Below, piece after piece: positions 31,940 to 44,661 of a stretch of 64,000 bases of DNA (positions are counted from its first letter, which is position 1; each line of letters begins with the position of its first letter). Location of the stretch: positions 88,221-152,220 of the forward strand of contig NZ_FQUG01000006.1 in assembly GCF_900129225.1 (NCBI RefSeq), in the 5' to 3' direction. The notes beneath the pieces were generated by a model. That model was not told the DNA's origin. It did not search any database and saw nothing but the letters and a program-made list of their open reading frames with translations. Source of the stretch: Schwartzia succinivorans DSM 10502 (lineage in GTDB: Bacteria; Bacillota; Negativicutes; Selenomonadales; Selenomonadaceae). A program made the position numbers and the translations under genes.

Positions 31940-32115
31940 TAAAATAACTCCTCTGGAAAAATCAAAATAAAATTCAAAATAAATTCAAAAATAAGAGGTA
32001 TTCTAGTATATATTCGCGAATAAATATAAGAATACCTTTTTTTAATTTGATTTCTTTTAAAAAAATTTGCAGGACGTGCCTGCGCACGTCGGATAAAATT
32101 CGGGGGTTATTGGTC

Positions 32116-33414
32116 ATGACATTGCGTAATCTGACAAATCAGGAGGTTATAACGGGGAGTGATTTCCGCCGCATGATAACAGGCGCTTACAGTGAGTTTC
32201 TTCTTGAATACGAGTCCATAAACGAGCAGGCGGACAGGGATAATCCTTCCCTTGTTACAAAGCCGGGGACTAATATTCTGCGGACAATGGGGGCAGCAGT
32301 TATGCCGCTGGAGGACGCTCAGGACGATACCATAGGCGGCCTTGCGCGGCGTGTGGCATCGGCAGCGGCTCTCGGGGCCCGGGGCTCGTCGGGAGTTGTC
32401 CTTTCCCAGCTTTTCCGCGGCATAGCAAAGGGGCTCATCGGTAAAATCGACGCTACCTCGTCGGAGTTCGGAAAGGCGTTCCAGTATGGCATTCTCTACG
32501 CGCAGCGCGTGCTGCCGGAGGATGTGGACCGTCCGATTGTCTCCGCGGCACGGGCCGTTGCAAAGGGCGCGTACAAGGCAGTGCGTGCAAATCTTCCGAT
32601 TTATGAAATTCTCGCGGCGGCGATAGAGGCAGGCAGCCACAGGGACGATGCTCCCTTCGTCGTGGGCGAGCGCATAATGATGGATTTCCTCAAGGGCTGT
32701 CAGAAGGGCCTTACGGGAAATTTCGTTTCTCCTGTGCTGAGCTTTTCCGTGGGAACGGGGGACCAGAAGCTGGGAATCCCCGACCCGCGGCAGGACGAGG
32801 TGCACCCATACTGTATGACCTTTGGGATTGAGAACTCAAAGGGGGACAGCAGACGTCTTGAGGAATATCTGCAGGGAGACGCCAGCTTTATCGTGGCAAC
32901 GAGACACCGTTCGCGTCTGGAGGTTCATCTTCACACGGCGCACCCGGGGCTTGTGCTGGAAAAATGCATCGGGTTCGGACGTCTTGAGTCCATACGCATA
33001 AATAACATGGCGGAGCCTCATGCAATGATTCTCGCCCATCATTCCCTGATGCCTGTGGCGCTTCTCGCGGCTGCCTATGATGAGGCACATGCGGAGAGAC
33101 TGCAGAAGCAGGGTGTGAACCTCATTACTCTCGGAGGCGAGGACAACACGCCGTCGGTTGGCGCACTGGTGAATGCGGCCCACAGCGATCTCGCGGAATC
33201 CTACGTGATGGTGTCGGACGGCACAAGGCTGAATCTTGAGCTTCGTCAGGTGAAGCGTATACTGGGTGACCGCGTGGAGATTATAACGGTGGATAATCCC
33301 GAGGAGCAGGAAATCGCCGTACGCGCCTTTAACAGGCACATGTCCGCGAAGGAAAACGCCGCAAGAATGACGGAAAGTCTTGAGGAATACAGAGGGAGAG
33401 ACGGGAATTGCTGA
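32116..33414 (+). CDS. DAK2/FakA-like protein lacking the kinase motif
   Basis: The 432-residue protein has the FakA/YloV layout: an N-terminal DhaL/DAK2 domain, with GARGSSGVVLSQLFRGIAKGL and later blocks (PYCMTFGIEN, LEVHLHTAHPGLVLEKCIGFGRLESIRINNM, GGEDNTPSV). FakA phosphorylates fatty acids held by FakB. In kinases the nucleotide-metal loop reads DGDTGTNM; here it is LVTKPGTNI, so the metal-binding aspartates are missing and it is probably not an active kinase. The start at 32116 follows GGGGGTT; an upstream ATG at 32047 is less likely. Its last codons overlap the helicase gene. Confidence 0.82.
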   Translation: MTLRNLTNQEVITGSDFRRMITGAYSEFLLEYESINEQADRDNPSLVTKPGTNILRTMGAAVMPLEDAQDDTIGGLARRVASAAALGARGSSGVVLSQLFRGIAKGLIGKIDATSSEFGKAFQYGILYAQRVLPEDVDRPIVSAARAVAKGAYKAVRANLPIYEILAAAIEAGSHRDDAPFVVGERIMMDFLKGCQKGLTGNFVSPVLSFSVGTGDQKLGIPDPRQDEVHPYCMTFGIENSKGDSRRLEEYLQGDASFIVATRHRSRLEVHLHTAHPGLVLEKCIGFGRLESIRINNMAEPHAMILAHHSLMPVALLAAAYDEAHAERLQKQGVNLITLGGEDNTPSVGALVNAAHSDLAESYVMVSDGTRLNLELRQVKRILGDRVEIITVDNPEEQEIAVRAFNRHMSAKENAARMTESLEEYRGRDGNC

Positions 33415-36400
33415 CGGATATTGAGATACGCTCTGCCGCAAACGACGCGGCGTATCCAAGAGGGCTCCGTTATTACAGGAACGGAGCGGTAAAGGATATT
33501 ACCGCGGTCTCCGAAAGAGGCGGAAAAATCACATACACAGGCCATGTGCACGGAAATCTTGATACATACGAGGTAAGCGCCGTTATAAGGGGCAGCGAAA
33601 TTGAGGAATGGGACTGCACCTGCCCTGCCGCCGCGCAGTATTCGGGAGCATGCAAGCACGTGGTGGCTTTTTTGAAGCGGATACAGGAAATCGAGCGGCT
33701 GAAATCCGTGGGCCGGAGCACTATTTCCAGCAGAAGGGAAACAGGGCTCAGGCTCTTTTCTCTTTTCGGTGAAAAGAATACCGCCGCCGCAATAAGAAAA
33801 GAGGATGCGCCCCTGCGTATGGAGGCGAAGCTTTTCGTTTCCCATGAATACAGCAATGTGACGAACTGGCTGGAGTTTAAGCTGGGCCGTGACAGACTCT
33901 ACGTAATGAGGAATATTCCCGACCTCATGCATACCGTTGACAGCGGTCTTCCTGTGGAGTTCGGAAAGCAGCTTACCCTTGAGCCTGAGGATTTTAGGTT
34001 TGAGCAGGGAGTGTCGGAGAAGCTGTGGGATTTTCTGAGGCGCGCGTACCGCGATGTAGCCAGCACGGAGGTCTACAGCTCCTATTTCCGTTCCTCATAC
34101 AACAACGTAAGCACAATGTTCGAGCAGAAAAGGTTCAAGCTGACTCCATCGCATCTTCGGGAGTTTCTTGAAATAATGAAGGATACTCCCTTTGTGCTTG
34201 CCGCAGGAGACAGGGAAAGAACGGTATACATAAAGGATGAAAACCCCGAGGTGCGGATACGGGTGGAGGACGTGGACGGTGGAGGAAGGATTTCCCTTCT
34301 GGAGCCTGAGAACATGATACTTCTGGACACCACAGGGGAGCTTGTTTTCATTGAGGATACCATATACAGAACAGAAAAGGATTTTGCGGAAAAGCTTCGG
34401 GCGATAGACAGGGCCTTTACCCAGTCCCGTTCACTGCGTCTTGGAGAGGAGCATATGGGAGGCTTTTTCGCGGAGGTTCTTCCTAAGCTTGAAAAGGCCG
34501 CGCATGTGGAGGTAGCCTCATCATTTACTGAGCGGTATGAGATGATGCCGTTGGCGGCAGAGGTGCACCTGGATTATTTTATGGACGGAGCCGCGGCAGA
34601 GCTTATTTTCAGCTACGGAGAGGAGACCTTTAATCCTGTTATGCAGGAGCCGCCTGTGAAAATAGGGGACAGGAGCCTTATACGGGACACGGAAACGGAG
34701 CGCAGGATACGGGCCATTTTTGACGCATTTTCCTTTGAGCAGGTGGGAGATCGTCTCGTGCAGCCTGAGGAAGAGCCCTTTTACGAATTTCTTGAGGATG
34801 GGCTGCCTGAGCTTTCGAAGCTGGCGGATGTTTACTACGCGGAGACCTTCAGGCGAAAACCGATTTCGAAGATGCCGCCTGTGACACTTGGCGTCAGCGT
34901 AAACGACGAAAATCTCCTTGAGGTCACCTTTCAGAACCGTGATTTTGACTTTGACGAGCTGATAGATATTTTGAAATCCTACCGCCTGCGAAGGCGCTAT
35001 CACAGGCTGAAGGACGGAGGCTTTATCTCTCTCGGCGACCAGCAGCTGGCATCCCTTGCGGAGTTCGTTGAGGGCGCGGGCATTAAGGGCGGCGAGGGAG
35101 AAAAGGCGGAGATTCCTCTGGCCCAGGCGATGTACCTTGATACCCTCGCCCGTGAGGACAGCACTCTGAGGCTTGAACGGGGGCGCAGCTTCAAGGCTCT
35201 CGTCCGTGATATAAGAGAACCGTCGGAGACGGATGCTGTTGTCCCCGAATCCCTTTCGGGAGTGCTGCGGAGTTATCAGGTCACGGGCTTTTCGTGGCTT
35301 ACGGCCCTTGCGGCCCACGGACTGGGAGGGATTCTCGCAGATGACATGGGCCTCGGGAAAACCCTTGAGGTACTGACCTTCCTGCTGTCCCAAAAAGAGG
35401 AAGGTGCCGCCCCTTCGCTGGTGGTTACACCTACATCCCTCATGTACAACTGGCTTGACGAAGCGGCACGGTTCGCTCCGGAGCTTATGGTTACGGTCAT
35501 TGACGGAACGAAAAGGGAGCGTGGAGAAAAGCTTGCAAGTACGGATGCGGACGTCATTATTACCACATACAACATGCTCCGCCGTGACATAGATATGTAT
35601 GAAAAGAAAAATTTCCGCTACTGCTTCCTTGACGAGGCGCAGCATATAAAAAATCCCTCCACACAGAGCGCAAAGGCGGTAAAGCGTATACGCGCCGGAG
35701 TATCATTTGCTCTCACGGGAACACCTATTGAGAACACCCTTACGGAGCTTTGGTCCATTTTTGATTTCCTTATGCCGGGTTATCTCGGAAATCACAAGCG
35801 CTTTCATTCACATTATGAAGTGCCGATTGTCCGCGCGCAGGACAGGGAAGCCTCCGAGGACCTCAGGCGTCATATCGCCCCCTTTGTGCTGCGGCGTCTT
35901 AAAAAGGACGTCCTCACGGAGCTTCCCGACAAGGTGGAAAGCCGCATGACAGCGGAAATGACATCCAATCAGGAAAGAGTTTACGCAGCGTATTTCGCCC
36001 AGGCGCAGAAGGATTTTAGAAAGGAACTCAAGGCTCACGGCTTTGACGCCAGCCACATAAAGATACTGGCGCTCCTTACAAGGCTCCGCCAGATTGCCTG
36101 CGACCCATCACTCTTTCTTGAAAACTATGACGGCGGCTCGGGAAAACTTGACCTTCTGGAGGAAATTCTCAGTGATGCGGCAGCCGCGGGACACCGTGTG
36201 CTGATTTTTTCGCAGTTTACGACTATGCTGCAGCGCATCGGAAGGCGTCTTGAGGCAGCAGGACTTGACTACAGCTATCTTGACGGGGCAACGCCGCCTC
36301 TCACGCGGCTTACCCTTGTGAAGGAGTTCAACGCGGGGAGCGTTCCCGTGTTTTTGATTTCCCTCAAGGCAGGGGGTACGGGACTCAACCTCACGGGGGC

Positions 36401-36647
36401 CGATATGGTCATACATTTCGACCCGTGGTGGAATCCTGCCGTTGAGGACCAGGCAACTGACCGCGCCTACAGAATCGGACAGGAAAAGAACGTGCAGGTG
36501 CTGAAGCTGGTAACTAAGGGGACTATAGAGGAGAAAATTTTTGCCCTGCAGGAAAAGAAAAAAGCCCTCATCGACCAGATGATACGTCCGGGAGAGAGCT
36601 TTTTGTCGAAGCTCAGCGAGGAAGAAATCGCGGAGCTTTTCCGCTGA
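33408..36647 (+). CDS. SNF2-family helicase with N-terminal SWIM zinc finger
   Basis: A 1,079-residue ATP-driven DNA translocase. A SWIM finger (WDCTCPAAAQYSGACKHVVAF, about residues 66-85) leads a SNF2-associated domain. The helicase N lobe has ADDMGLGKT (Walker A, about 640-650), ITTYNMLRRD, LDEAQHIKN (motif II) and LTGTPIENTLTELWSIFDF. The C lobe has LIFSQFTTML, LISLKAGGTGLNL and ATDRAYRIGQ (motif VI). Bacterial SWIM/SNF2 proteins are associated with nucleic-acid remodelling, including RNA polymerase recycling and repair. TTG start at 33408 overlaps the preceding gene and follows GGGAGAG. Pol IV follows. Confidence 0.93.
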   Translation: MLTDIEIRSAANDAAYPRGLRYYRNGAVKDITAVSERGGKITYTGHVHGNLDTYEVSAVIRGSEIEEWDCTCPAAAQYSGACKHVVAFLKRIQEIERLKSVGRSTISSRRETGLRLFSLFGEKNTAAAIRKEDAPLRMEAKLFVSHEYSNVTNWLEFKLGRDRLYVMRNIPDLMHTVDSGLPVEFGKQLTLEPEDFRFEQGVSEKLWDFLRRAYRDVASTEVYSSYFRSSYNNVSTMFEQKRFKLTPSHLREFLEIMKDTPFVLAAGDRERTVYIKDENPEVRIRVEDVDGGGRISLLEPENMILLDTTGELVFIEDTIYRTEKDFAEKLRAIDRAFTQSRSLRLGEEHMGGFFAEVLPKLEKAAHVEVASSFTERYEMMPLAAEVHLDYFMDGAAAELIFSYGEETFNPVMQEPPVKIGDRSLIRDTETERRIRAIFDAFSFEQVGDRLVQPEEEPFYEFLEDGLPELSKLADVYYAETFRRKPISKMPPVTLGVSVNDENLLEVTFQNRDFDFDELIDILKSYRLRRRYHRLKDGGFISLGDQQLASLAEFVEGAGIKGGEGEKAEIPLAQAMYLDTLAREDSTLRLERGRSFKALVRDIREPSETDAVVPESLSGVLRSYQVTGFSWLTALAAHGLGGILADDMGLGKTLEVLTFLLSQKEEGAAPSLVVTPTSLMYNWLDEAARFAPELMVTVIDGTKRERGEKLASTDADVIITTYNMLRRDIDMYEKKNFRYCFLDEAQHIKNPSTQSAKAVKRIRAGVSFALTGTPIENTLTELWSIFDFLMPGYLGNHKRFHSHYEVPIVRAQDREASEDLRRHIAPFVLRRLKKDVLTELPDKVESRMTAEMTSNQERVYAAYFAQAQKDFRKELKAHGFDASHIKILALLTRLRQIACDPSLFLENYDGGSGKLDLLEEILSDAAAAGHRVLIFSQFTTMLQRIGRRLEAAGLDYSYLDGATPPLTRLTLVKEFNAGSVPVFLISLKAGGTGLNLTGADMVIHFDPWWNPAVEDQATDRAYRIGQEKNVQVLKLVTKGTIEEKIFALQEKKKALIDQMIRPGESFLSKLSEEEIAELFR

Positions 36648-36692
36648 ACACAGAGATTTTTGGAAATTCGGTTAGGAAAGGGGGGAGACGGC

Positions 36693-37850
36693 ATGGACCG
36701 CTGGATACTGCATGTGGATATGGACGCATTTTTCGCGTCGGTTGAGCAGCGTGACCACGAGGAATACAGGGGAAAGCCTGTCATAGTCGGCGGCCTCGGC
36801 CCAAGGGGCGTCGTCTCCACCGCCTCCTACGAAGCGCGGCGCTATGGCGTGCACTCGGCTATGCCTATGGCCACCGCAAGACGGCTTTGCAGGGACGGAA
36901 TCTTTTTATCGGGGAGCTACGAGACCTACCGCGCCGTTTCGAAAAAGGTCTTTTCCGTGCTTTCGCGATTTTCCCCTGTTATAGAGCCTCTCTCCATTGA
37001 TGAAGGCTTTCTGGATATCACGGGGATGGAAGGACTTATGGAAAGCCGCAGGGAATACGGTCTCAGACTGAAAAAGGAAATATTTGAGGCAACGGGACTC
37101 GTCGCCTCCGTGGGTATCGCGCCGAATAAATTCCTTGCAAAGCTTGCATCGGATTTGGAAAAGCCTGACGGCCTCGTAATAATCGAAAAAGAAGACATCA
37201 TGCGCGTGCTTTCGCCGCTCCCTGTGAGACGAATCTGGGGCGTGGGAAAGAAAATGAACGAAAGGCTCGCCCTTCTTGGCATAAAAACAATCGGCGAACT
37301 GGCGAATACGGATATAAAAATCCTTGAGGAAAATCTGGGAACCCATGCGGCACGTCAGCTTTATGAGCTGTCCCACGGCATTGACAACCGCCCCGTAGAG
37401 CCTGAGCGGGAGGTTAAATCCATCGGCCGCGAGGAAACCTTCACAGAGGATATATACAAAAGGGAAGATATAGACAAGGCGCTTTTGTATCTGGCGGAGC
37501 AGGTGGGGTGGCGGCTTCGGAAGGCAGGGACAATGGCGCATACCATTCAGCTGAAAATTCGATTCGGAGATTTCTCTACCTATACAAGGAGGAAAACCCT
37601 GGAGCAGCCTACGGCATACGACGAGGAAATATATGAAACGGCAAAGGAGCTGTGTTCATCTGTAACAATGCCGAGAGGCATGGGAGTTAGGCTTCTTGGC
37701 ATAAGCGGCAGCGGCCTCGGCACATCCTCGGAAATCTCCCTTTTCTCCGCAAGGGATACACAGAAAAAAGAAAAGCTGTACGGAGCGATAGACGACCTGA
37801 AGGCACGTTTCGGCGAAGGCATAGTGACAAAAGGAAATCTGATTAGGTAG
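36693..37850 (+). CDS. dinB: DNA polymerase IV (Y-family)
   Basis: A 385-residue translesion polymerase. Catalytic acidic residues lie in HVDMDAFFASVEQ (about residues 7-19) and PLSIDEGFLDITG (about 105); VVSTASYEARRYGVHSAMP is the fingers signature, VASVGIAPNKFLAKLASD the palm end, and IWGVGKKMNERLALLGIKTIGEL the thumb. The little-finger domain follows (SIGREETF). The ATG at 36693 follows GGGGGGAG. It is third in the unit with the DAK2-like protein and the SNF2 helicase, which suggests a DNA damage or replication-stress role. No LexA box is evident before the operon. Confidence 0.95.
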   Translation: MDRWILHVDMDAFFASVEQRDHEEYRGKPVIVGGLGPRGVVSTASYEARRYGVHSAMPMATARRLCRDGIFLSGSYETYRAVSKKVFSVLSRFSPVIEPLSIDEGFLDITGMEGLMESRREYGLRLKKEIFEATGLVASVGIAPNKFLAKLASDLEKPDGLVIIEKEDIMRVLSPLPVRRIWGVGKKMNERLALLGIKTIGELANTDIKILEENLGTHAARQLYELSHGIDNRPVEPEREVKSIGREETFTEDIYKREDIDKALLYLAEQVGWRLRKAGTMAHTIQLKIRFGDFSTYTRRKTLEQPTAYDEEIYETAKELCSSVTMPRGMGVRLLGISGSGLGTSSEISLFSARDTQKKEKLYGAIDDLKARFGEGIVTKGNLIR

Positions 37851-37865
37851 GGAAAACATGGCAGG

Positions 37866-37975
37866 GTACTCCCTCCGTCACGCTTCCAGCGTGCCACCTC
37901 CCTCAATGAGGGAGGCAGAAAAAGCCCCCCTCATTGAGGGGGGTGCCCTGGAAGGGCGGGGGGAGTACCAGGGAG
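37866..37975. repeat. REP-like palindromic repeat after dinB
   Basis: CTCCCTCCGTCACGCTTCCAGCGTGCCACC, then CCTCA-AT-GAGG and CCCCCCTCATTGAGGGGGG hairpins and GCCCTGGAAGGGCGGGGGGAG. Several nested hairpins lie on one strand. Confidence 0.85.
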
Positions 37976-38120
37976 AGTGTTGATTACAAGCGTCCAGGTG
38001 CGGGGAGTACAGCAGCACTGTGTGTGGCGTGCCCTTAAAGGGCGCACAGTACCATGCTTGGGTATTCTGAATGGCGGGGGAGTACCGAAGGTCGCAAAAA
38101 AACGAAATGGAGACTTTCAA

Positions 38121-38489
38121 ATGTCACTGACATACAACAAAAAACTCATTCCGTTGGCAAAAGCATTAAGAACAAAAATGACAAGGCAGGAAAGACATTT
38201 GTGGTACGATTTTCTACGTAATTATCCAATACGTTTTCAACGGCAAAAAACCATTGATAACTACATTGCTGATTTTTACTGCCATAAAGCCAAACTTGTT
38301 ATTGAGATTGATGGCAGTCAGCATTACACAGAAGAAGGACTGGAATACGATGAAATTCGTACCAATATTCTGCAAGAGTACAGACTGGAAATTATCAGAT
38401 TTACTAATGTGGATATTGACAGAAACTTTGTGAATGTATGTCAGGCAATAGATAATAAAGTAAAGCAGGTACTGAGCACCACTCCGTAA
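38121..38489 (+). CDS. DUF559 (Vsr/MutH-like fold) endonuclease-domain protein
   Basis: A 122-residue protein with the DUF559 layout: LRTKMTRQERHLWYDFLRN, FRQKTI-type strand (IRFQRQKTIDNYIADFYC), then the nuclease core VIEIDGSQHYTEEG and the end RLEIIRFTNVDI. The Asp/Glu-x-Asp and Gln residues correspond to the PD-(D/E)xK-like active site. Start 38121 (ATGTCACTG) is preceded by GGAGAC. REP-like palindromes lie immediately on both sides. Its target is unknown. Confidence 0.85.
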   Translation: MSLTYNKKLIPLAKALRTKMTRQERHLWYDFLRNYPIRFQRQKTIDNYIADFYCHKAKLVIEIDGSQHYTEEGLEYDEIRTNILQEYRLEIIRFTNVDIDRNFVNVCQAIDNKVKQVLSTTP

Positions 38490-38511
38490 GAGGTTCGTGA
38501 TGCAACTGACA

Positions 38512-39145
38512 CTCCCTCCGTCACGCTTACAGCGTGCCAAGCCAACATGCCACTGGCATGTTGACACCTCAGCGAGGGAGGCTCCAAAAGCCCCCAACAT
38601 AGAAGGAAGCAGATAAAAGTTCTACTCAAAGAGTGGTACTCCCTCCGTCACGCCTTCAGCGTGCCAAGCCAACATGCCACCGGCATGTTGACACCTCATG
38701 GAGGACACTCTCTCCGTCACGCCTTCATTTAGCAAAGCCAACATGTCACCGGCATGTTGACACCTCAGCGAGGACACTCCCTCCGTCACGCTTCCAGCGT
38801 GCCAAGCCAACATGCCACCGGCATAGTGACACCTCAGCGAGGGAGGCTCCAAAAGCCCCCAACATATAAGGAAGCAGATAAAAGTTCTACTCAAAGAGTG
38901 GTACTCCCTCCGTCACGCCTTCAGCGTGCCAAGCCAACATGCCACCGGCATATTGACACCTCAATGAGGGAGGCCTCAAAAGCCCCCATTGAGGAGTGCT
39001 AAGGAAGGATGATCAGCATGACGGCAGCTCCAATAAAATCCACTTCATTTAGTGGTGCTAAGGAAAAATGATAAATATGTCGGCAGTTCCAATAAAAGCC
39101 CCCCTCATTGAGGGGGGTGCCCTGTAAGGGCGGGGGGAGTATTGT
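38512..39145. repeat. Cluster of REP-like palindromic repeats
   Basis: At least five copies start near 38512, 38640, 38705, 38777 and 38900, with a shorter sixth at about 39095-39145. Each has CTCCCTCCGTCACGC, a CGCTT..AGCGTG hairpin, GCCAAGCCAACATGCC-AC-GGCATGTTG, then CCTCA..GAGG. Bases 38580-38640 and 38845-38905 are also near-identical (AAAAGCCCCCAACAT, AGATAAAAGTTCTACTCAAA), so larger blocks were duplicated. Unit lengths differ and no unique spacers or cas genes are present, so it is not CRISPR. Bases 39146-39504 hold no supported gene apart from the microprotein frame below. Confidence 0.88.
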
Positions 39146-39425
39146 AGGAGATCGCAATACATCTAAAAATGATAAGCCTAAAGGTGGAGATACGTTACCA
39201 CCACTATTGGAAAGGGTTCGGAGGAGAATCGAATAACTCAAAAAAGATATGAAAACGACAAGAAATGCCCCCACATACATCAAAAGCCCGGAACATAGGC
39301 ATGAAGAAAATAATCAAGATTGTCCGTAGTAAATACTTCCGCAATTCCATTGGAACACCATGAAAAAGAGGAAGTCGCTTGGCTTCCTCTTTCAGTTTAA
39401 TCGTTGTCTCCTCAAAACTCTTTAG

Positions 39426-39488
39426 CTCAATCGGGGATATCATCTCCAAAGCGTTTTTCTACCCAGTCTGGGTGATTTGGATTATGCA
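39426..39488 (-). CDS. Possible 20-residue microprotein
   Basis: A frame starting MHNPNHPDWVEKRFGDDIPD with ATG at 39488 and a GAGG-containing upstream stretch (AATGAGGTTTTGACC). It follows the small Asn/His-rich gene by 16 bases and shares its Asn/His/Pro taste. An overlapping frame (MEMISPIELKSFEETTIKLKEEAKRLP from 39449) could instead be the real product. Low certainty. Confidence 0.3.
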
Positions 39489-39504
39489 TGGTCAAAACCT
39501 CATT

Positions 39505-39660
39505 TTACTTATGAGTGTTGTGATGTGCGGCGTTGTTTGGATTGCACTGATTTGCGTGGTTATTGGCTGCTGCCGTGTGTGCGGAGTTGTTGGGATTGCT
39601 TTGGTTAGCGTGGTGATTCATTTGGGATTGTGTATGAGTGTTTCCTGATACTTTAGCCAT
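39505..39660 (-). CDS. Small Asn/His-rich tandem-repeat protein
   Basis: A 51-residue protein with a strong ribosome binding site (GGAGGTG, 7 bases before ATG 39660). It begins MAKVSGNTHTQSQMN and contains two near-identical 14-residue copies, NHHANQSNPNNSAH and NNHANQCNPNNAAH. I do not recognise a family with assigned function. It sits at the edge of the AT-rich island, on the same strand as the XRE regulator. His and Asn bias could suit metal binding, but that is a guess. Confidence 0.7.
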   Translation of the reverse strand: MAKVSGNTHTQSQMNHHANQSNPNNSAHTAAANNHANQCNPNNAAHHNTHK

Positions 39661-39900
39661 CAACTGCACCTCCTTTCATTAACTTGTGTCATGCTTGTTG
39701 CTTTTTCACCCTTTCAGACACCTGTATGGTTAAATATCGAGAACAAGTCGCTTTTGCAAAAAAATAAATTGGGTTGATTATATTCCTGCCTCTTGAATTG
39801 CTAAATCCGAATCTTTAGCCATCATAAAAGGTGCCTTCGCTTTTTGATGAATTAAGATTATCATCAAAGAACGAAGACGACAAACAATTCGTAGTTGTAT

Positions 39901-40560
39901 TTAAAACTGTATGGTGGATGTGAAACCTATTAACGAAAGATAATGTAAATAGTCTTTATGTGAGAGCCATGGATTATTGATATTATGCGGCATCCCTGAT
40001 GAACAAGTTAATCCCCAAGTCTTAAACATTTTATCAATCCAAGCTTTCGAAACTTGTTCTTTATTCCCGTTAAATTCTTTCAATTTGTTTATGCACCAAA
40101 CATAATCTGCCGGAGTGTCTAATGCGAATTTTACGCCATATTCATCAAGAACAGACCAAAACTTCACCGCATCCTTTTTGTCTGCATTTAAAGTTTTATA
40201 GCTATCCATTTCATTTTTGGAAAGCCTTAGAATAACAGTCATTTTATTATTGCAATCTATAAGCGCTCGTTTCATGACTTCTTTAACCTGATTGCTTTCG
40301 CGTTCCATCCGAGCCTTATAATATGGGGTAAAATCAATGTATAAGTCGTAATGTTTTTCGTCACAATATAAATCTGGCAAAGCAACATCAAGGGCAGATG
40401 AAAGTGCTTCCAAAGTATCAATCGGAGGCATAATCTTTCCTTTTTCGATACGTCCCACATTTTGTTGTGTCATATGTGCTTTTTTAGCGAGTGTTGTTTG
40501 TGTTAAACCGCGAAGTTTACGATAAAACTTCACATTTTCGCCTATAGCTTTAGCATTCAT
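39901..40560 (-). CDS. XRE-family regulator with unknown C-terminal domain
   Basis: A 219-residue protein. Residues 1-65 form a Cro/C1 helix-turn-helix (FYRKLRGLTQTTLAKKAHMTQQNVGRIEKGK). The remaining 150 residues (from YDLYIDFTPYYKARMERESN to the end) match nothing I recognise. It is divergently transcribed from the PLD/AAA+ gene across a 133-base promoter region, and probably represses that operon and itself. The region is visibly richer in AT than the flanking housekeeping genes. Bases 39661-39900 hold no supported gene. Confidence 0.82.
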   Translation of the reverse strand: MNAKAIGENVKFYRKLRGLTQTTLAKKAHMTQQNVGRIEKGKIMPPIDTLEALSSALDVALPDLYCDEKHYDLYIDFTPYYKARMERESNQVKEVMKRALIDCNNKMTVILRLSKNEMDSYKTLNADKKDAVKFWSVLDEYGVKFALDTPADYVWCINKLKEFNGNKEQVSKAWIDKMFKTWGLTCSSGMPHNINNPWLSHKDYLHYLSLIGFTSTIQF

Positions 40561-40591
40561 AAATACATTCCTTTCAATATAGGTATTCTTT

Positions 40592-40651
40592 GCTGTCTAA
40601 AAATATTGACCTATTTCTGGATTACTGCTACACTATATTAAGCCGTCTAAA
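40592..40651. promoter_or_regulatory. Promoter with flanking direct repeats, island operon
   Basis: TTGACC (40606-40611), 17 bases, TACACT (40629-40634) drive the plus-strand operon. Direct repeats GCTGTCTAAA (40592) and GCCGTCTAAA (40642) flank the promoter 50 bases apart, and ATAGGT/ACCTAT form a wider inverted pair. These are candidate operators for the divergent XRE protein. Confidence 0.55.
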
Positions 40652-40693
40652 TTTTGCATTTTATTTTTGGAATAATGTAAGGGGGATAATAGT

Positions 40694-42853
40694 ATGGCAG
40701 AAAATCAAGTAATAAGTCTATTTGGAAATGAAGAATTACCTAAAGTAGTAAATGGTAATAATTCTACAATTAATAACAAAATAAAATGTCATTGGGTAAA
40801 TTATAAAGACACGACTATGGAATGTCCATTAAGTCTTTTTGATGGGTATCAGGATTTAAAGGTTATATCATTTTCGTATAATTTTGGATTTATTGCACAG
40901 CTAACAGAAAAATTTGAGCAATCACAAATTATTCTTGGGGCAGAATTTATTGCTTCAAAAATGAATAAAACGATAGTAAACCAGATGAAAGAAGTAATGG
41001 CCAATGCTGATGAATTACGCTTGAATCTTCATCGAAATAAGAAATTGGCTAAACGGGTTGTTGAAGAAGTAGTGGAAATTCGGTGTCCGTTGATGGTGAT
41101 AGACCATCGAAAAATATATCTGTTAAAATCGGATGGTGACCGAAAGCGCGTAATTATGCCGTCTGCTAATATTTCTGCCCGTGCCTGGACAGGACTTAAT
41201 CAAATTGAGAACTTTAATGTTAGTGATGATCCGGCATTATATGATGTATATTTAGCTGAATTTGAAACTGCTTGGGAATTGTCGGAACCTGTAGTTCCGA
41301 ATGCGCGAGTCACAAAAGAAATAAACGAAAAATCAATTGATGAACTTCCGGATAAAGATGTATCAGGAAAAGAAACGGAAATATATTCTGTTGAATCTGA
41401 TAATCCCATACTGGAAAATGCCACCAAAGCTGTAATTGACAAGGCTATCATTGTAAAAGAAGTCGATGATATGGAAACAAAGCTTGAAATTATTGAATAT
41501 GATAAAGATATGGAAAAATTAAAACAGTTTCATGCTGAGATACTAAAGGAGCTTAAATTAAAAAACAATAGAAATCAAATACAGCTTGTCCCTAAGATGA
41601 TAGAGGAATATCGCTTTAACGCAAATAAAATTAGTAAGAAAAAAATGAATTTTGAAAAGAAATCGGTGGCATATCCTCGTATGATAGTAGATTACTCAAC
41701 AGAGGAGATTTTTTTAGACAAACAAAAGATGGATTTGTCTCCAACTGATGATGCTGTAAAAAATGACATTAAAGAGATGCTTGCAGTTTTTTCAAACTTT
41801 GATAATTTTATTGGACAAGTTAATAAAGCAAGGGAAAATTTTTTTAAACTAATGGTTGCGTTATTTTCCTCACCGTTTAATGCAAAGCTTCGCTGTGTTG
41901 CGTTTTTAAAAGATAAAGCAACTCAGGGCCTGCCATTGTATATCTTGTTAAACTCCCCTAGAGCAAATTGCGGTAAAACCTTTATGGTTAGGTATTTCCT
42001 GAAAATGATGACGGGTAAAAAGCAGCTTGGTTATAAATTTGAAAAAATAAAATCAAAAGAGTTGGAAGCTTTTTTGAAAAGTGATGAAGTACAGCATAAG
42101 GGTATTCCGATTTTTATTGATGAGGTAACTTCTGCTTTTAAAATATCGTTTTCGGGGATGATTAGAACAGTAGATTCTTGTGAAGAGGAATTTCGGGAAT
42201 GTCAGCCGTTGACGATATTTGCTTCCAATGATGTACCTAAACCTGACGAACCTTTGCGAAAAAGAATGGTATTTATGAATTTTGATATTGGACTGCCAAG
42301 TGATGTAATGCCGCGCGAAATGGATACAATAGGCAGACAGTTAGTTAATCGGGTAAATACTGCGTTTTATCGCAAATATTTATCCTATATGCTTCCATAT
42401 GTAACGGGTGAATTACGTAAAATGACTACAGGCGAAGGACTTACAGATGAATACTCTCCGGAGCTTATGAAAAAATCGTCCGAAATTATTATTGAAATAA
42501 TAAAAGGATATGGGTTTGAGATTCCTGAGTATATGAAAATTTTATCCTGGGATACTGATTATGCAGCAAATTCCCAATCAATTTATGAAGATGAATTAAA
42601 CAAAATAATTGAACTATACAAGACGGATAGAAAGCTGTTTAATATCGATGAAAGATATGTTACTATTTGCTTGAACGATGATGGAACAGGCTCTAAAATG
42701 ATATCAAACTGGGTAAACCTTCTCCCTGGTGAAATTCAAGCAGAAAAACTTCCTAATTTTAAAATTCGCATGAATCGTAAAGCATTGGAAAAGCATCTTG
42801 ATTATCATTTTGAAACAGGCCTCCGCGCGAAATTAAAAGACTGGTTTTCATAA
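40694..42853 (+). CDS. PLD-like domain fused to an AAA+/SF3-like ATPase
   Basis: A 719-residue protein with two parts. Residues about 45-205 resemble a phospholipase-D-type nuclease module with one HxK motif (VIDHRKIYLLKSD, about 136-146) followed by RVIMPSANISARAWTGLNQIENF. Residues about 210-300 are an acidic linker. Residues about 370-620 resemble an SF3/D5-type helicase ATPase: NSPRANCGKTFMVRYFLK (P-loop GKT about 427; its first Gly is replaced), IPIFIDEVTSAF (Walker B about 473), LTIFASNDV (sensor 1) and EPLRKRMVF (arginine finger). A nuclease-helicase or replication-type role on DNA is inferred. GGGGAT precedes the ATG. The resolvase-like gene follows by 20 bases. Confidence 0.72.
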   Translation: MAENQVISLFGNEELPKVVNGNNSTINNKIKCHWVNYKDTTMECPLSLFDGYQDLKVISFSYNFGFIAQLTEKFEQSQIILGAEFIASKMNKTIVNQMKEVMANADELRLNLHRNKKLAKRVVEEVVEIRCPLMVIDHRKIYLLKSDGDRKRVIMPSANISARAWTGLNQIENFNVSDDPALYDVYLAEFETAWELSEPVVPNARVTKEINEKSIDELPDKDVSGKETEIYSVESDNPILENATKAVIDKAIIVKEVDDMETKLEIIEYDKDMEKLKQFHAEILKELKLKNNRNQIQLVPKMIEEYRFNANKISKKKMNFEKKSVAYPRMIVDYSTEEIFLDKQKMDLSPTDDAVKNDIKEMLAVFSNFDNFIGQVNKARENFFKLMVALFSSPFNAKLRCVAFLKDKATQGLPLYILLNSPRANCGKTFMVRYFLKMMTGKKQLGYKFEKIKSKELEAFLKSDEVQHKGIPIFIDEVTSAFKISFSGMIRTVDSCEEEFRECQPLTIFASNDVPKPDEPLRKRMVFMNFDIGLPSDVMPREMDTIGRQLVNRVNTAFYRKYLSYMLPYVTGELRKMTTGEGLTDEYSPELMKKSSEIIIEIIKGYGFEIPEYMKILSWDTDYAANSQSIYEDELNKIIELYKTDRKLFNIDERYVTICLNDDGTGSKMISNWVNLLPGEIQAEKLPNFKIRMNRKALEKHLDYHFETGLRAKLKDWFS

Positions 42854-42873
42854 TTGAAAGGTTGATTATATCA

Positions 42874-43482
42874 ATGAAAAAAATTGATAATATTTACATA
42901 TATGCAAAACAGAAAGACAACATAGAAGAACTGAAATATGTCCTCCTAAATATTGATGCATTTCATAGGTGCGATAATGTTTATATTAGTCAAGAACCGA
43001 GACGAAGCTTTACTGAGCTTGAAAAAATAAAGGAAGTAATCAAAGAGAATGATGTTTGTATTATAACAAACCCTGCATCGTTAGGACTAAATGAAGCTGA
43101 AATTGTCAAGCAAATTGAGTGGTTTATTCAAAAGCCGAGGATATTGTTGATATACGATTTTTCGGCTACATACTCATGGGGTATTTACCAGCCTATGAAT
43201 CAAGCTATTCTTCAAACAATACAGCAATCGGTATTAATTCAGTCAGGAAAGCATATTGTAAAAATGCCGGAAAACAGAAAATCGAATGCAGGGCGAAGTC
43301 GTGTAGACTTTCCTGAAAATTGGGAAGAACTATATGACGAATGGGAAAGGAAAATAATAACGTCTAAGGAATTCTTGGAGAAATCAGGGTTAAAAAGAGC
43401 TACTTTTTATAATATGATAACGGAATATAGAGAAATTAAAGAGGAAAAAAACAAGTTTTATAATTCATACAAAACACTATAA
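42874..43482 (+). CDS. Resolvase-like protein without catalytic serine, with C-terminal HTH
   Basis: A 202-residue protein. The N-terminal part (IYIYAKQKDNIEELKYVL, EVIKENDVCIITNPASLGLNEAEIV) aligns by eye with serine recombinases (YARVSTxDQ..., GDxLVVxxLDRLGRN), but the active Ser position reads Lys/Gln and the RLGRN arginines are replaced (SLGLN). The C-terminal GRSRVDFPENWEELYDEWERK...LKRATFYNMITEYRE matches the DNA-binding end of small resolvases. It is probably a DNA-binding partner of the ATPase and not an active recombinase. ATG at 42874 is chosen; a TTG at 42862 abuts the GAAAGG site. Confidence 0.7.
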   Translation: MKKIDNIYIYAKQKDNIEELKYVLLNIDAFHRCDNVYISQEPRRSFTELEKIKEVIKENDVCIITNPASLGLNEAEIVKQIEWFIQKPRILLIYDFSATYSWGIYQPMNQAILQTIQQSVLIQSGKHIVKMPENRKSNAGRSRVDFPENWEELYDEWERKIITSKEFLEKSGLKRATFYNMITEYREIKEEKNKFYNSYKTL

Positions 43483-44217
43483 GGTGGGTTGCTGGGGAAT
43501 GTTTATAGTCATTCTAAGAAATAAAACCTTTCTTTATATTCCCGTATACTGGTGGCTAAGAACAAATAAAGGTTAAAATAACGCAGATATGTCCGCTACT
43601 GGGACCACCAGCTGAGAGCATTAAGCATTTTGTATGTTTATTTTACACAGAAAAAATGGCTATCATGTTTCGATTACGTCTGAATGGGATGAATTTTAAT
43701 GTATTTTCGTCAGACGATGAATCGGTCGTTACGGAGTAGCATGGTCTACGCCGAGTATCAGCTGACACAGCATGGCGGAAAAAGACAAGGAAAAAGACCA
43801 CACAAAAAGGACCTACCGCAAGCAGTAAGTCCTTTTCAAAGATGGGGTCCAAAATGCCGTCGGCAATATCTGCCTAAACCTGCATGTGCAGGTGGGTACC
43901 CTAAGCCGTGTCTTTGATCATCGTCCTAAACGCTACATCAGCCACATGGTTCAAATCAGGTTCCCTGAAGGTAAAAGTCGGTTAGACATCAATATCTGCC
44001 AACGCACACCCCAGACGTTTCCTTCTTCACCTGTATAGTAGCACAAAGCAATGGCCAAAACAAGTCTTGACAAAGCGTTATGGCAGTGCTTTTCGAGCGT
44101 TTTTTATTGGATTTTCGGAAAATGTTTTTCATATTTAATATACCTCGGTCAGAATTGGGAAAACTGTACGGGAACGCAATGATTTCGGGAGAACGGGGGA
44201 GCGAATCTCATTTTAGG
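43483..44217. other. Gene-free stretch at the island's right edge
   Basis: No supported gene. A hairpin AAAGGAC-C-TAC..GTA-A-GTCCTTT lies at 43805-43838 and could terminate transcription on either strand. An inverted pair CTGGTGG/CCACCAG spans about 43549-43610. Short frames on both strands (for example 43643-43852) have no coding signs. This may be decayed mobile DNA, but no transposase motif is readable. Confidence 0.5.
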
Positions 44218-44247
44218 TTGGCAAAACTTGAATTAATGCGTTATAAT
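44218..44247 (+). promoter_or_regulatory. Promoter matching the parAB promoter
   Basis: TTGGCA (44218-44223), 18 bases, TATAAT (44242-44247). The segment TTGGCAAAACTTGAATTAATGCG closely resembles the parA promoter (TTGGCAAAATCTGAACTATG), so both derive from one repeat family. Confidence 0.6.
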
Positions 44248-44283
44248 CATTAGATAGAATCTACGGATGAAAGGAAGAAAAAA

Positions 44284-44643
44284 ATGGCAAACAAGTTCAG
44301 CGTAGCCGTCCATTACAATGATGTCCTGGGCTATATCGAATATGATGAGGATACACATAAAGCTGTTGTAACGCTGCCTGATGAAAAGGGCAAAAAGCTC
44401 GCGGAGGAATATCTCGGCACAACCCATAAAATCAACGTACCTCAGAGCAATCTCGTTGATTTCAAGGAAGAAACCATTGACCCGCTGGCGGATGTAAGAA
44501 GCTTTCAGATTGCGCTCACACGTATCTGGGAGGAGACTGAGGTCTACGTTGACTGGAGCCGTCCGGTAGAGTTCATTAAAAAATATCCGACTCTCGACAG
44601 CCTGCCGAAGGGCGGAGAGCATTTCGAGCTTTCGGAAAACTAA
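44284..44643 (+). CDS. Conserved-looking hypothetical protein
   Basis: A 119-residue acidic soluble protein beginning MANKFSVAVHYNDVLGYIEYDED and ending with a segment including WEETEVYVDWSRPVEFIKKYP. GAAAGGAAG precedes the ATG. I do not recognise the family. GC content is like the housekeeping genes and unlike the neighbouring island. It has its own promoter and a terminator. Confidence 0.75.
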   Translation: MANKFSVAVHYNDVLGYIEYDEDTHKAVVTLPDEKGKKLAEEYLGTTHKINVPQSNLVDFKEETIDPLADVRSFQIALTRIWEETEVYVDWSRPVEFIKKYPTLDSLPKGGEHFELSEN

Positions 44644-44661
44644 AGCTGTACTATGAATTAA

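Follow-up and report, generated by a model that had tools for sequence, protein, structure and literature searches.

A predicted PLD nuclease-AAA+ ATPase operon of Schwartzia succinivorans and its catalytically dead resolvase, a probable autorepressor

What could a resolvase-like protein without catalytic residues do directly behind the gene of a nuclease-ATPase? The question is raised by an AT-rich island in a 64,000-nucleotide stretch of Schwartzia succinivorans DSM 10502 (contig NZ_FQUG01000006.1, positions 88,221 to 152,220 of the forward strand; hereafter the window). The island carries three open reading frames (ORFs): 39901-40560 on the minus strand (219 aa), coding for an XRE-family regulator, and, divergently from it, 40694-42853 (719 aa) and 42862-43482 (206 aa) on the plus strand, coding for a fusion of a PLD nuclease with an AAA+ ATPase (gene 2) and for the resolvase-like protein (gene 3). 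Genes 2 and 3 form a real and conserved unit with an unusual regulator, and the unit is unnamed as far as searched: the core pair is named neither in the libraries nor in the open-licence literature that we searched, and no description of the pair was found in the latter, in agreement with an earlier reading of the sequence alone (the sequence-only reading), which knew of no such system. With modest confidence we favour the explanation that this is an acquired two-gene operon, in which the dead resolvase represses its own promoter and the nuclease-motor attacks invading DNA.

Gene 3 (42862-43482, plus strand) starts with TTG at 42862 or ATG at 42874 and is a small serine recombinase of the Sin type. 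Pfam yields no match for the window protein, and its Resolvase family matches two of the ten relatives. A profile of ten gene-3 relatives matches Sin 2r0q with E 2.3e-5, and the structure model (mean predicted local distance difference test score, pLDDT, 77.6) superposes on DNA-bound Sin 2r0q with Z 15.1 and a root-mean-square deviation (rmsd) of 7.3 over 162 residues; both the resolvase fold and the C-terminal helix-turn-helix are present. Catalysis in serine recombinases involves the YxRVS and LDRLGR motifs, and the catalytic serine and arginines of these motifs are not found in gene 3. As had been read from the sequence, these residues are lacking: lysine occupies the serine column and none of the three arginine columns holds arginine. 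In comparison with active resolvases of the same class, the three arginine columns are changed in all ten proteins of the family and the serine column in nine of the ten, and the long helix is shortened at its end, a part of it being missing. Thus, gene 3 resembles the Sin, Tn552, and gamma-delta resolvases in its fold, its helix-turn-helix, and its promoter-embedded inverted sites, and differs from them in the changed catalytic columns and the shortened end of the long helix.

The sites lie in the divergent 133-bp intergenic region, whose GC content is 0.286. The paired GCYGTCTAAA repeats described earlier are found there as GCTGTCTAAA (40592-40601) and GCCGTCTAAA (40642-40651), and each copy opens a 28-bp imperfect inverted repeat of the res-like kind. 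The first of these, predicted operator site I (40595-40622, plus strand), contains the -35 box of a promoter predicted by its match to the consensus (40606-40634, plus strand; -35 TTGACC at 40606-40611, 17 bp, -10 TACACT at 40629-40634). The second, predicted operator site II (40645-40672, plus strand), follows the -10 box, and its centre is 50 bp from that of site I. The window belongs to a clade of six PLD-ATPases with 100/100 support, all of which have gene 3. Upstream of gene 2 in this clade stands GTCTAAAAAT-N8/9-ATTTTTAGAC or a sequence close to it, with the -35 box in the spacer and the -10 box behind it, and in all six loci the -35 box falls 11-12 bp into site I. Five of the six loci have a second copy, the centres being 50-51 bp apart (the window, L073, and L084) or 42 bp apart (L060 and L087).

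When the region of site I was shuffled 200 times with its dinucleotides preserved, no shuffle fitted the inverted repeat of the clade as well as site I does. Among 11 loci with gene 3, none of the 200 shuffles was as good in six, which are all six of the window's clade, and 16 of 17 PLD-ATPase loci without gene 3 had no site by the same test. When the 2.66-Mb genome was scanned with a spacer-free pattern, sites I and II were the only places with no mismatch; none had one or two mismatches, and the other places, all with three, were at the control level (19 matches in total, 23 in the control).

The half-site, counted as GTCTAWAA with at most one mismatch within 200 bp upstream, was seen 3 times against 2.8 expected in 15 loci without gene 3. 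In ten loci with gene 3 it was seen 17 times against 2.3 expected, a count that is weakened as evidence for binding by gene 3 because it is partly circular, the half-site having been read from gene-3 loci, and because the loci are related. Upstream of 17 resolvases, 24 half-sites were seen against 4.0 expected, concentrated in six of them. These resolvases comprise 7 of the 10 matches L114-L123 (a second dead family, L118-L120, being left out), those of viral contigs L097-L099 (of seven), and those of 7 of 26 plasmid records, chosen before their upstream DNA was seen. The recognition helix reads [A/G]TFY in all ten dead gene-3 proteins, and [A/P]TFY in five of the six resolvases with two or more half-sites and in none of the other 11; the two kinds of counts are not independent, because the sequences are related. 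Fisher tests (without L144, L117, and L070, and with related loci taken as independent) were not relied on. By sequence comparison, the sites are res-like, with a half-site that also occurs in the sites preceding active gene-3 relatives, and gene 3 is the likely binder of both.

The linkage of the two genes is tight. The 380 genomes of the class contain ten gene-3 matches above 220 bits, each of them immediately behind a PLD-ATPase; the next match, at 90.5 bits, is an intact resolvase. The spacing between genes 2 and 3, taken from longest-frame starts, is 3-22 bp or an overlap in 12 of 12 loci, including L084 and L087, and on a tree of 24 PLD-ATPases the gene-3 label has to change three times. 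Of 189 genomes of the family, 14 have a strong match to gene 2 (E below 1e-70); at E<=1e-3 the number is 27 of 189, many of the matches being short or partial. At E<=1e-20 gene 2 is matched in 21 of the 380 class genomes and in 10 of 398 genomes of the phylum sample.

Gene 3 is most likely an autorepressor, because the sites occur in relatives without the XRE gene, because nearly all loci without gene 3 (the 16 of 17) are without sites, and because the half-site is common to the sites upstream of active gene-3 relatives. The sites lie on the operon's own promoter, are the only two in the genome, and track gene 3 rather than the XRE gene; therefore, autoregulation as in TnpR is suggested. TnpR of Tn3 autoregulates at res (PMC7157771), and MrpR of SPbeta, a former tyrosine recombinase, is a repressor, so that a recombinase fold can turn into a pure repressor (PMC10516654). 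Both are recombinase-fold proteins that repress genes of their own element; the differences from gene 3 are that TnpR is still a recombinase, and that MrpR is of the tyrosine type and represses a prophage.

In the proposed mechanism, gene 3, having lost catalysis and kept the fold and the helix-turn-helix, would bind both res-like sites at the promoter of its operon and, bound there, would repress the operon as TnpR does at res. Repression would end, for example, when the operon enters a new cell or when gene 3 is titrated away. The released operon would then produce the nuclease-motor, which would move on foreign DNA and cut it, as SauUSI does with another motor. The regulator thus appears to be a recombinase turned repressor that has kept its res-like site; if this is true, mobile-element machinery has here become the switch of an immune operon, and particular residues and an operator of 78 bp lend themselves to direct tests.

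The product of gene 2 (40694-42853, plus strand) is recognized by its conserved residues, its PLD fold, and the fold of Cch and SaPI Rep. Its PLD domain, already noticed by the sequence-only reading, is matched by PLDc_2 with E 4e-6, at a bit score just over the curated cut-off. Asn and Glu are part of the PLD nuclease motif. Among 24 homologues, K140, S157, and N159 are kept in all, H138 and E172 in 22 (not in L063 and L065), and the ATPase residues K428, D476, N512, and R524 in all. RE_NgoFVII matches 22 and PLDc_2 21 of these homologues at E<=0.1; RE_NgoFVII is not among the matches listed for the window's protein itself. The structure model has a mean pLDDT of 76.5. The top fold match is SauUSI, aligned with residues 34-531 (Z 14.1, rmsd 16.6); residues 41-202 align with Nuc (Z 13.0, rmsd 3.1), and the PLD part aligns with the NgoAVII R protein (Z 12.4) and BfiI (Z 9.6). 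BfiI acts as a homodimer that has a single, metal-independent site and forms a covalent intermediate (PMC4081073). Gene 2 has the features of restriction-type PLD nucleases such as BfiI and NgoFVII, namely HxK, Asn, and Glu in the fold of Nuc, NgoAVII, and BfiI.

The C-terminal half shares its fold with initiator proteins of mobile elements: residues 329-708 align with SCCmec Cch (Z 13.1, rmsd 7.2, 307 residues) and residues 328-719 with SaPI Rep (Z 11.8, rmsd 6.8, 299 residues), the AAA+ core and the C-terminal part of the fold being both present. The earlier label of an ATPase like those of superfamily 3 (SF3) or D5 was roughly right, since the Foldseek matches also include viral proteins of the SF3 type; the nearest fold is that of MCM-like initiator helicases. 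As judged from the residues and the model, gene 2 is likely an ATP-driven DNA nuclease that joins a restriction-type PLD domain to an initiator-type AAA+ motor, and it may act as a hexamer with nuclease activity. This architecture is matched by nothing in the searched defence library: no PADLOC model, DrmC included, matches the 719-aa protein at E<=1.

The closest known systems are SauUSI, NgoAVII/CglI, and PbeA, in which a PLD nuclease is combined with a nucleoside triphosphate motor in one chain or complex. Their motors belong to superfamily 2 (SF2). The motor is described as helicase-like for SauUSI (PMC7913695), as DEAD-family for CglI (PMC5737866), and as Res/DEAD for PbeA (PMC6459918). 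Gene 2 differs from the SauUSI/NgoAVII type in its AAA+ motor, aligned with Cch, and has no Pfam match to an SF2 helicase at E<=1. A target-recognition domain of the SauUSI/NgoAVII/PbeA kind was not identified in gene 2, none being listed by the fold search, which can miss domains when made with the 719-aa model.

The genomic neighbourhood is consistent with defence. Behind the unit of Anaerovibrio (L060), the opposite strand codes for Vsr, DrmC, DrmB, and DrmA, of which the three Drm proteins are the core of DISARM. DISARM resembles gene 2 in having a PLD protein (DrmC) with a motor protein; gene 2 itself falls into no DrmC family of PADLOC. The unit of L073 adjoins a type IIG restriction-modification enzyme, that of L059 a type I-like methylase, and that of L063 an Orf5/HEC-06-type protein. 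At E<=1e-10, the PADLOC families matched numbered 118 for 126 neighbour proteins from 22 loci and 23 for 126 control proteins, these counts being redundant and of families rather than proteins (one L063 protein alone has 25 families at E<=1e-8). In the control, the family mad3 was matched by five proteins, and 14 of the 20 control stretches existed; to the neighbour set L135 contributed no protein, and L067, L069, L070, L074, L082, L083, and the plasmid loci L003-L008 were not included in it. The ten neighbour proteins chosen for closer defence annotation were hand-picked. The enrichment of defence families near gene-2 loci is at most suggestive.

Two scans of viral contigs with gene 2 found nothing, and a scan with gene 3 found one prophage-like contig with both genes (L095, from a viral collection), with the same gene order and proteins as L074, which is prophage-like by gene content. 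A phage origin was rejected, no phage record matching gene 2 or gene 3 at E<=1e-3. The sequence-only reading had proposed a small defence or mobile-element module. The module is horizontally acquired, has a conserved core, and is found beside defence genes, on plasmids (for gene 2), and in a prophage; its role we infer.

Several observations weigh against the explanation that we favour. Gene 2 has no gene 3 behind it in 11 of the 21 class genomes that carry it, and gene 3 of L062 keeps serine at the catalytic column. The shuffle test finds no site in 4 of the 11 gene-3 loci (L062, L064, L075, and L074) and a weak one in L061 (matched by 3 of 200 shuffles), and it does find a site in L070, a locus without gene 3 whose gene 2 is truncated. 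Scanning for palindromes in general failed to tell loci that have gene 3 from those that lack it, and in the window the scan preferred another palindrome (p 0.10), sites I and II not being picked. Two half-sites also stand at L063, which has no gene 3 (p 0.01), and at L144, whose resolvase belongs to another subgroup and lacks the [A/P]TFY helix. The independence of the sites from the XRE gene is tempered by L059, which shows a weak, short helix-turn-helix match to the XRE protein (E 2e-4), and by L084, a contig of 6.4 kb, so that an XRE gene may exist further off. For gene 2, the nearest solved AAA+ protein by sequence profile is Msp1/ATAD1 (E 9e-5), Cch following with E 0.007. Finally, defence neighbours are common in accessory DNA generally.

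The alignments with Cch and SaPI Rep open another explanation, in which gene 2 would initiate the replication of a mobile element or help to maintain it, its PLD domain nicking an origin and the repeats serving as origin iterons. Homologues of gene 2 are indeed found on 12 plasmid records (Acetobacter, Komagataeibacter, Arcobacter, Athalassotoga, and Thermus; three over at least 80% of the query), L061 and L064 adjoin genes that look parA/parB-like by eye, and Cch2, a 3'-5' helicase, binds iterons (PMC7581432). However, three of the plasmid carriers (L005, L006, and L007) have an annotated replication initiator of their own, the repeats track gene 3 and not gene 2, and in three loci of one genus (L066, L067, and L068) gene 2 stands beside the same phosphatase-like gene (by eye). 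Unlike Cch and SaPI Rep, gene 2 carries an N-terminal PLD nuclease; no iterons were recognized, and no origin or primase partner was recognized. We regard a replication role as unlikely, and the neighbours suggest defence cargo rather than a replication module.

It seems equally doubtful that gene 3 is a DNA-recognition subunit bringing the PLD nuclease to particular sites, as the sequence-only reading had proposed. The tight linkage and the retained helix-turn-helix would agree with such a function, and targeting by gene 3 may hold alongside autoregulation. On the other side, the only places in the host genome with the site are the two on the operon's own promoter, which leaves this claim less supported, and gene 2 occurs in 11 of 21 class genomes with no gene 3 behind it.

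The operator might also be bound by the C-terminal domain of the AAA+ protein or by the XRE regulator, with gene 3 doing something else. Cch2 binds DNA via its C-terminal domain (PMC7581432), and the XRE gene diverges across the same intergenic region. This explanation is improbable: the site is absent upstream of 16 of the 17 PLD-ATPase loci without gene 3, it is present in the four loci of the clade where a close XRE homologue was not found, and its half-site recurs upstream of resolvases on other elements. A still fainter prospect is that the dead resolvase, silencing the operon from a fossil res site, is a decoy sensor titrated by GTCTA-type res sites of incoming plasmids or phages. Sites of this type precede resolvases of Priestia and Paenibacillus plasmids and of viral contigs (L142, L145, and L097-L099), and the PLD-AAA+ nuclease would then be switched on at the very entry of an element that has a resolution system.

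The XRE regulator (39901-40560, minus strand) is treated here as an accessory of the operon. The earlier description of a regulator with an unassigned C-terminus holds, HTH_3 matching with E 3e-14. Its homologues at E<=1e-15 were found in 2 of 100 genomes, that of the window included, both beside the PLD-ATPase, and in none of the plasmids; viral contigs gave none either. Within the window's clade, close homologues are present at only two of six loci. As a core member the XRE gene was rejected, since only two of 100 relatives carry a homologue; of the three-gene neighbourhood expected elsewhere, genes 2 and 3 are conserved and the XRE gene is not.

The second accessory is a small Asn/His-rich protein with NPNN repeats (39505-39669, minus strand; 54 codons), whose ORF forms the left edge of the region delimited earlier. 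It has no Pfam match at E<=0.001 and no NCBIfam match at E<=0.1. Its homologue in Anaerovibrio (L060, 7593-7748) also lies beside an XRE homologue, in another gene order, and it occurs at no other locus among those scanned. The XRE gene and this gene are common to one other locus, and the core consists of the two genes and the operator.

Some relatives of the core genes have features of their own. The prophage-like copy of the PLD-ATPase in L074 (7992-11144) and L095 (4829-7981) is read as a frame of 1050 aa that is greatly extended at its N-terminus; its neighbour, a protein of 540 aa, is CoiA-like by eye and is matched by no Pfam family. A true match to CoiA lies near the PLD-ATPase of L079. 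Directly behind gene 3 lies an RNase H-like gene in L061 (6454-7383, Pfam RNase_H) and in L076 (9760-10731, by eye). The second resolvase-like family with changed arginine columns (GYAEN.., LSALGDSD), seen in one genus (L118 1507-2088, L119 1489-2088, and L120 1471-2082), has the serine changed as well in L119 and L120, and its genes lie near apparent sugar-metabolism genes (by eye).

The horizontal acquisition of this small module with its conserved two-gene core is supported by composition and by comparison within the genus. The block was described as AT-rich, and the GC content of 39505-43482 is indeed 0.340, against a mean of 0.502 in 205 overlapping same-size stretches outside the island (standard deviation 0.021), and below their minimum of 0.456. 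By blastn, positions 37853-43745 (5.9 kb; no strand) are an insertion between dinB and a 119-aa gene relative to a genome of the same genus (G001), where the matches to 32000-37852 and 43746-44644 are only 63 bp apart; the call rests on this one other genome, which is 63% complete. At its empty site a clear target duplication was not seen. A transposon or integrative element with its own ends was rejected. Neither the island nor the insertion is bounded by any of the 25 longest inverted repeats found in 37.9-44.3 kb, and no integrase or transposase was recognized among the ORFs of the insertion (four examined by Pfam, the rest by eye); the terminal inverted repeats and transposase of a Tn3-type transposon were thus not found. 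The same insertion also carries a DUF559 gene (37977-38489, plus strand; Pfam DUF559, E 7.5e-27) and five GC-rich repeats of 70 nt (38508-38969). A 6S RNA gene (43842-44020, minus strand; RF00013, 62.9 bits) lies 96 bp beyond its right edge.

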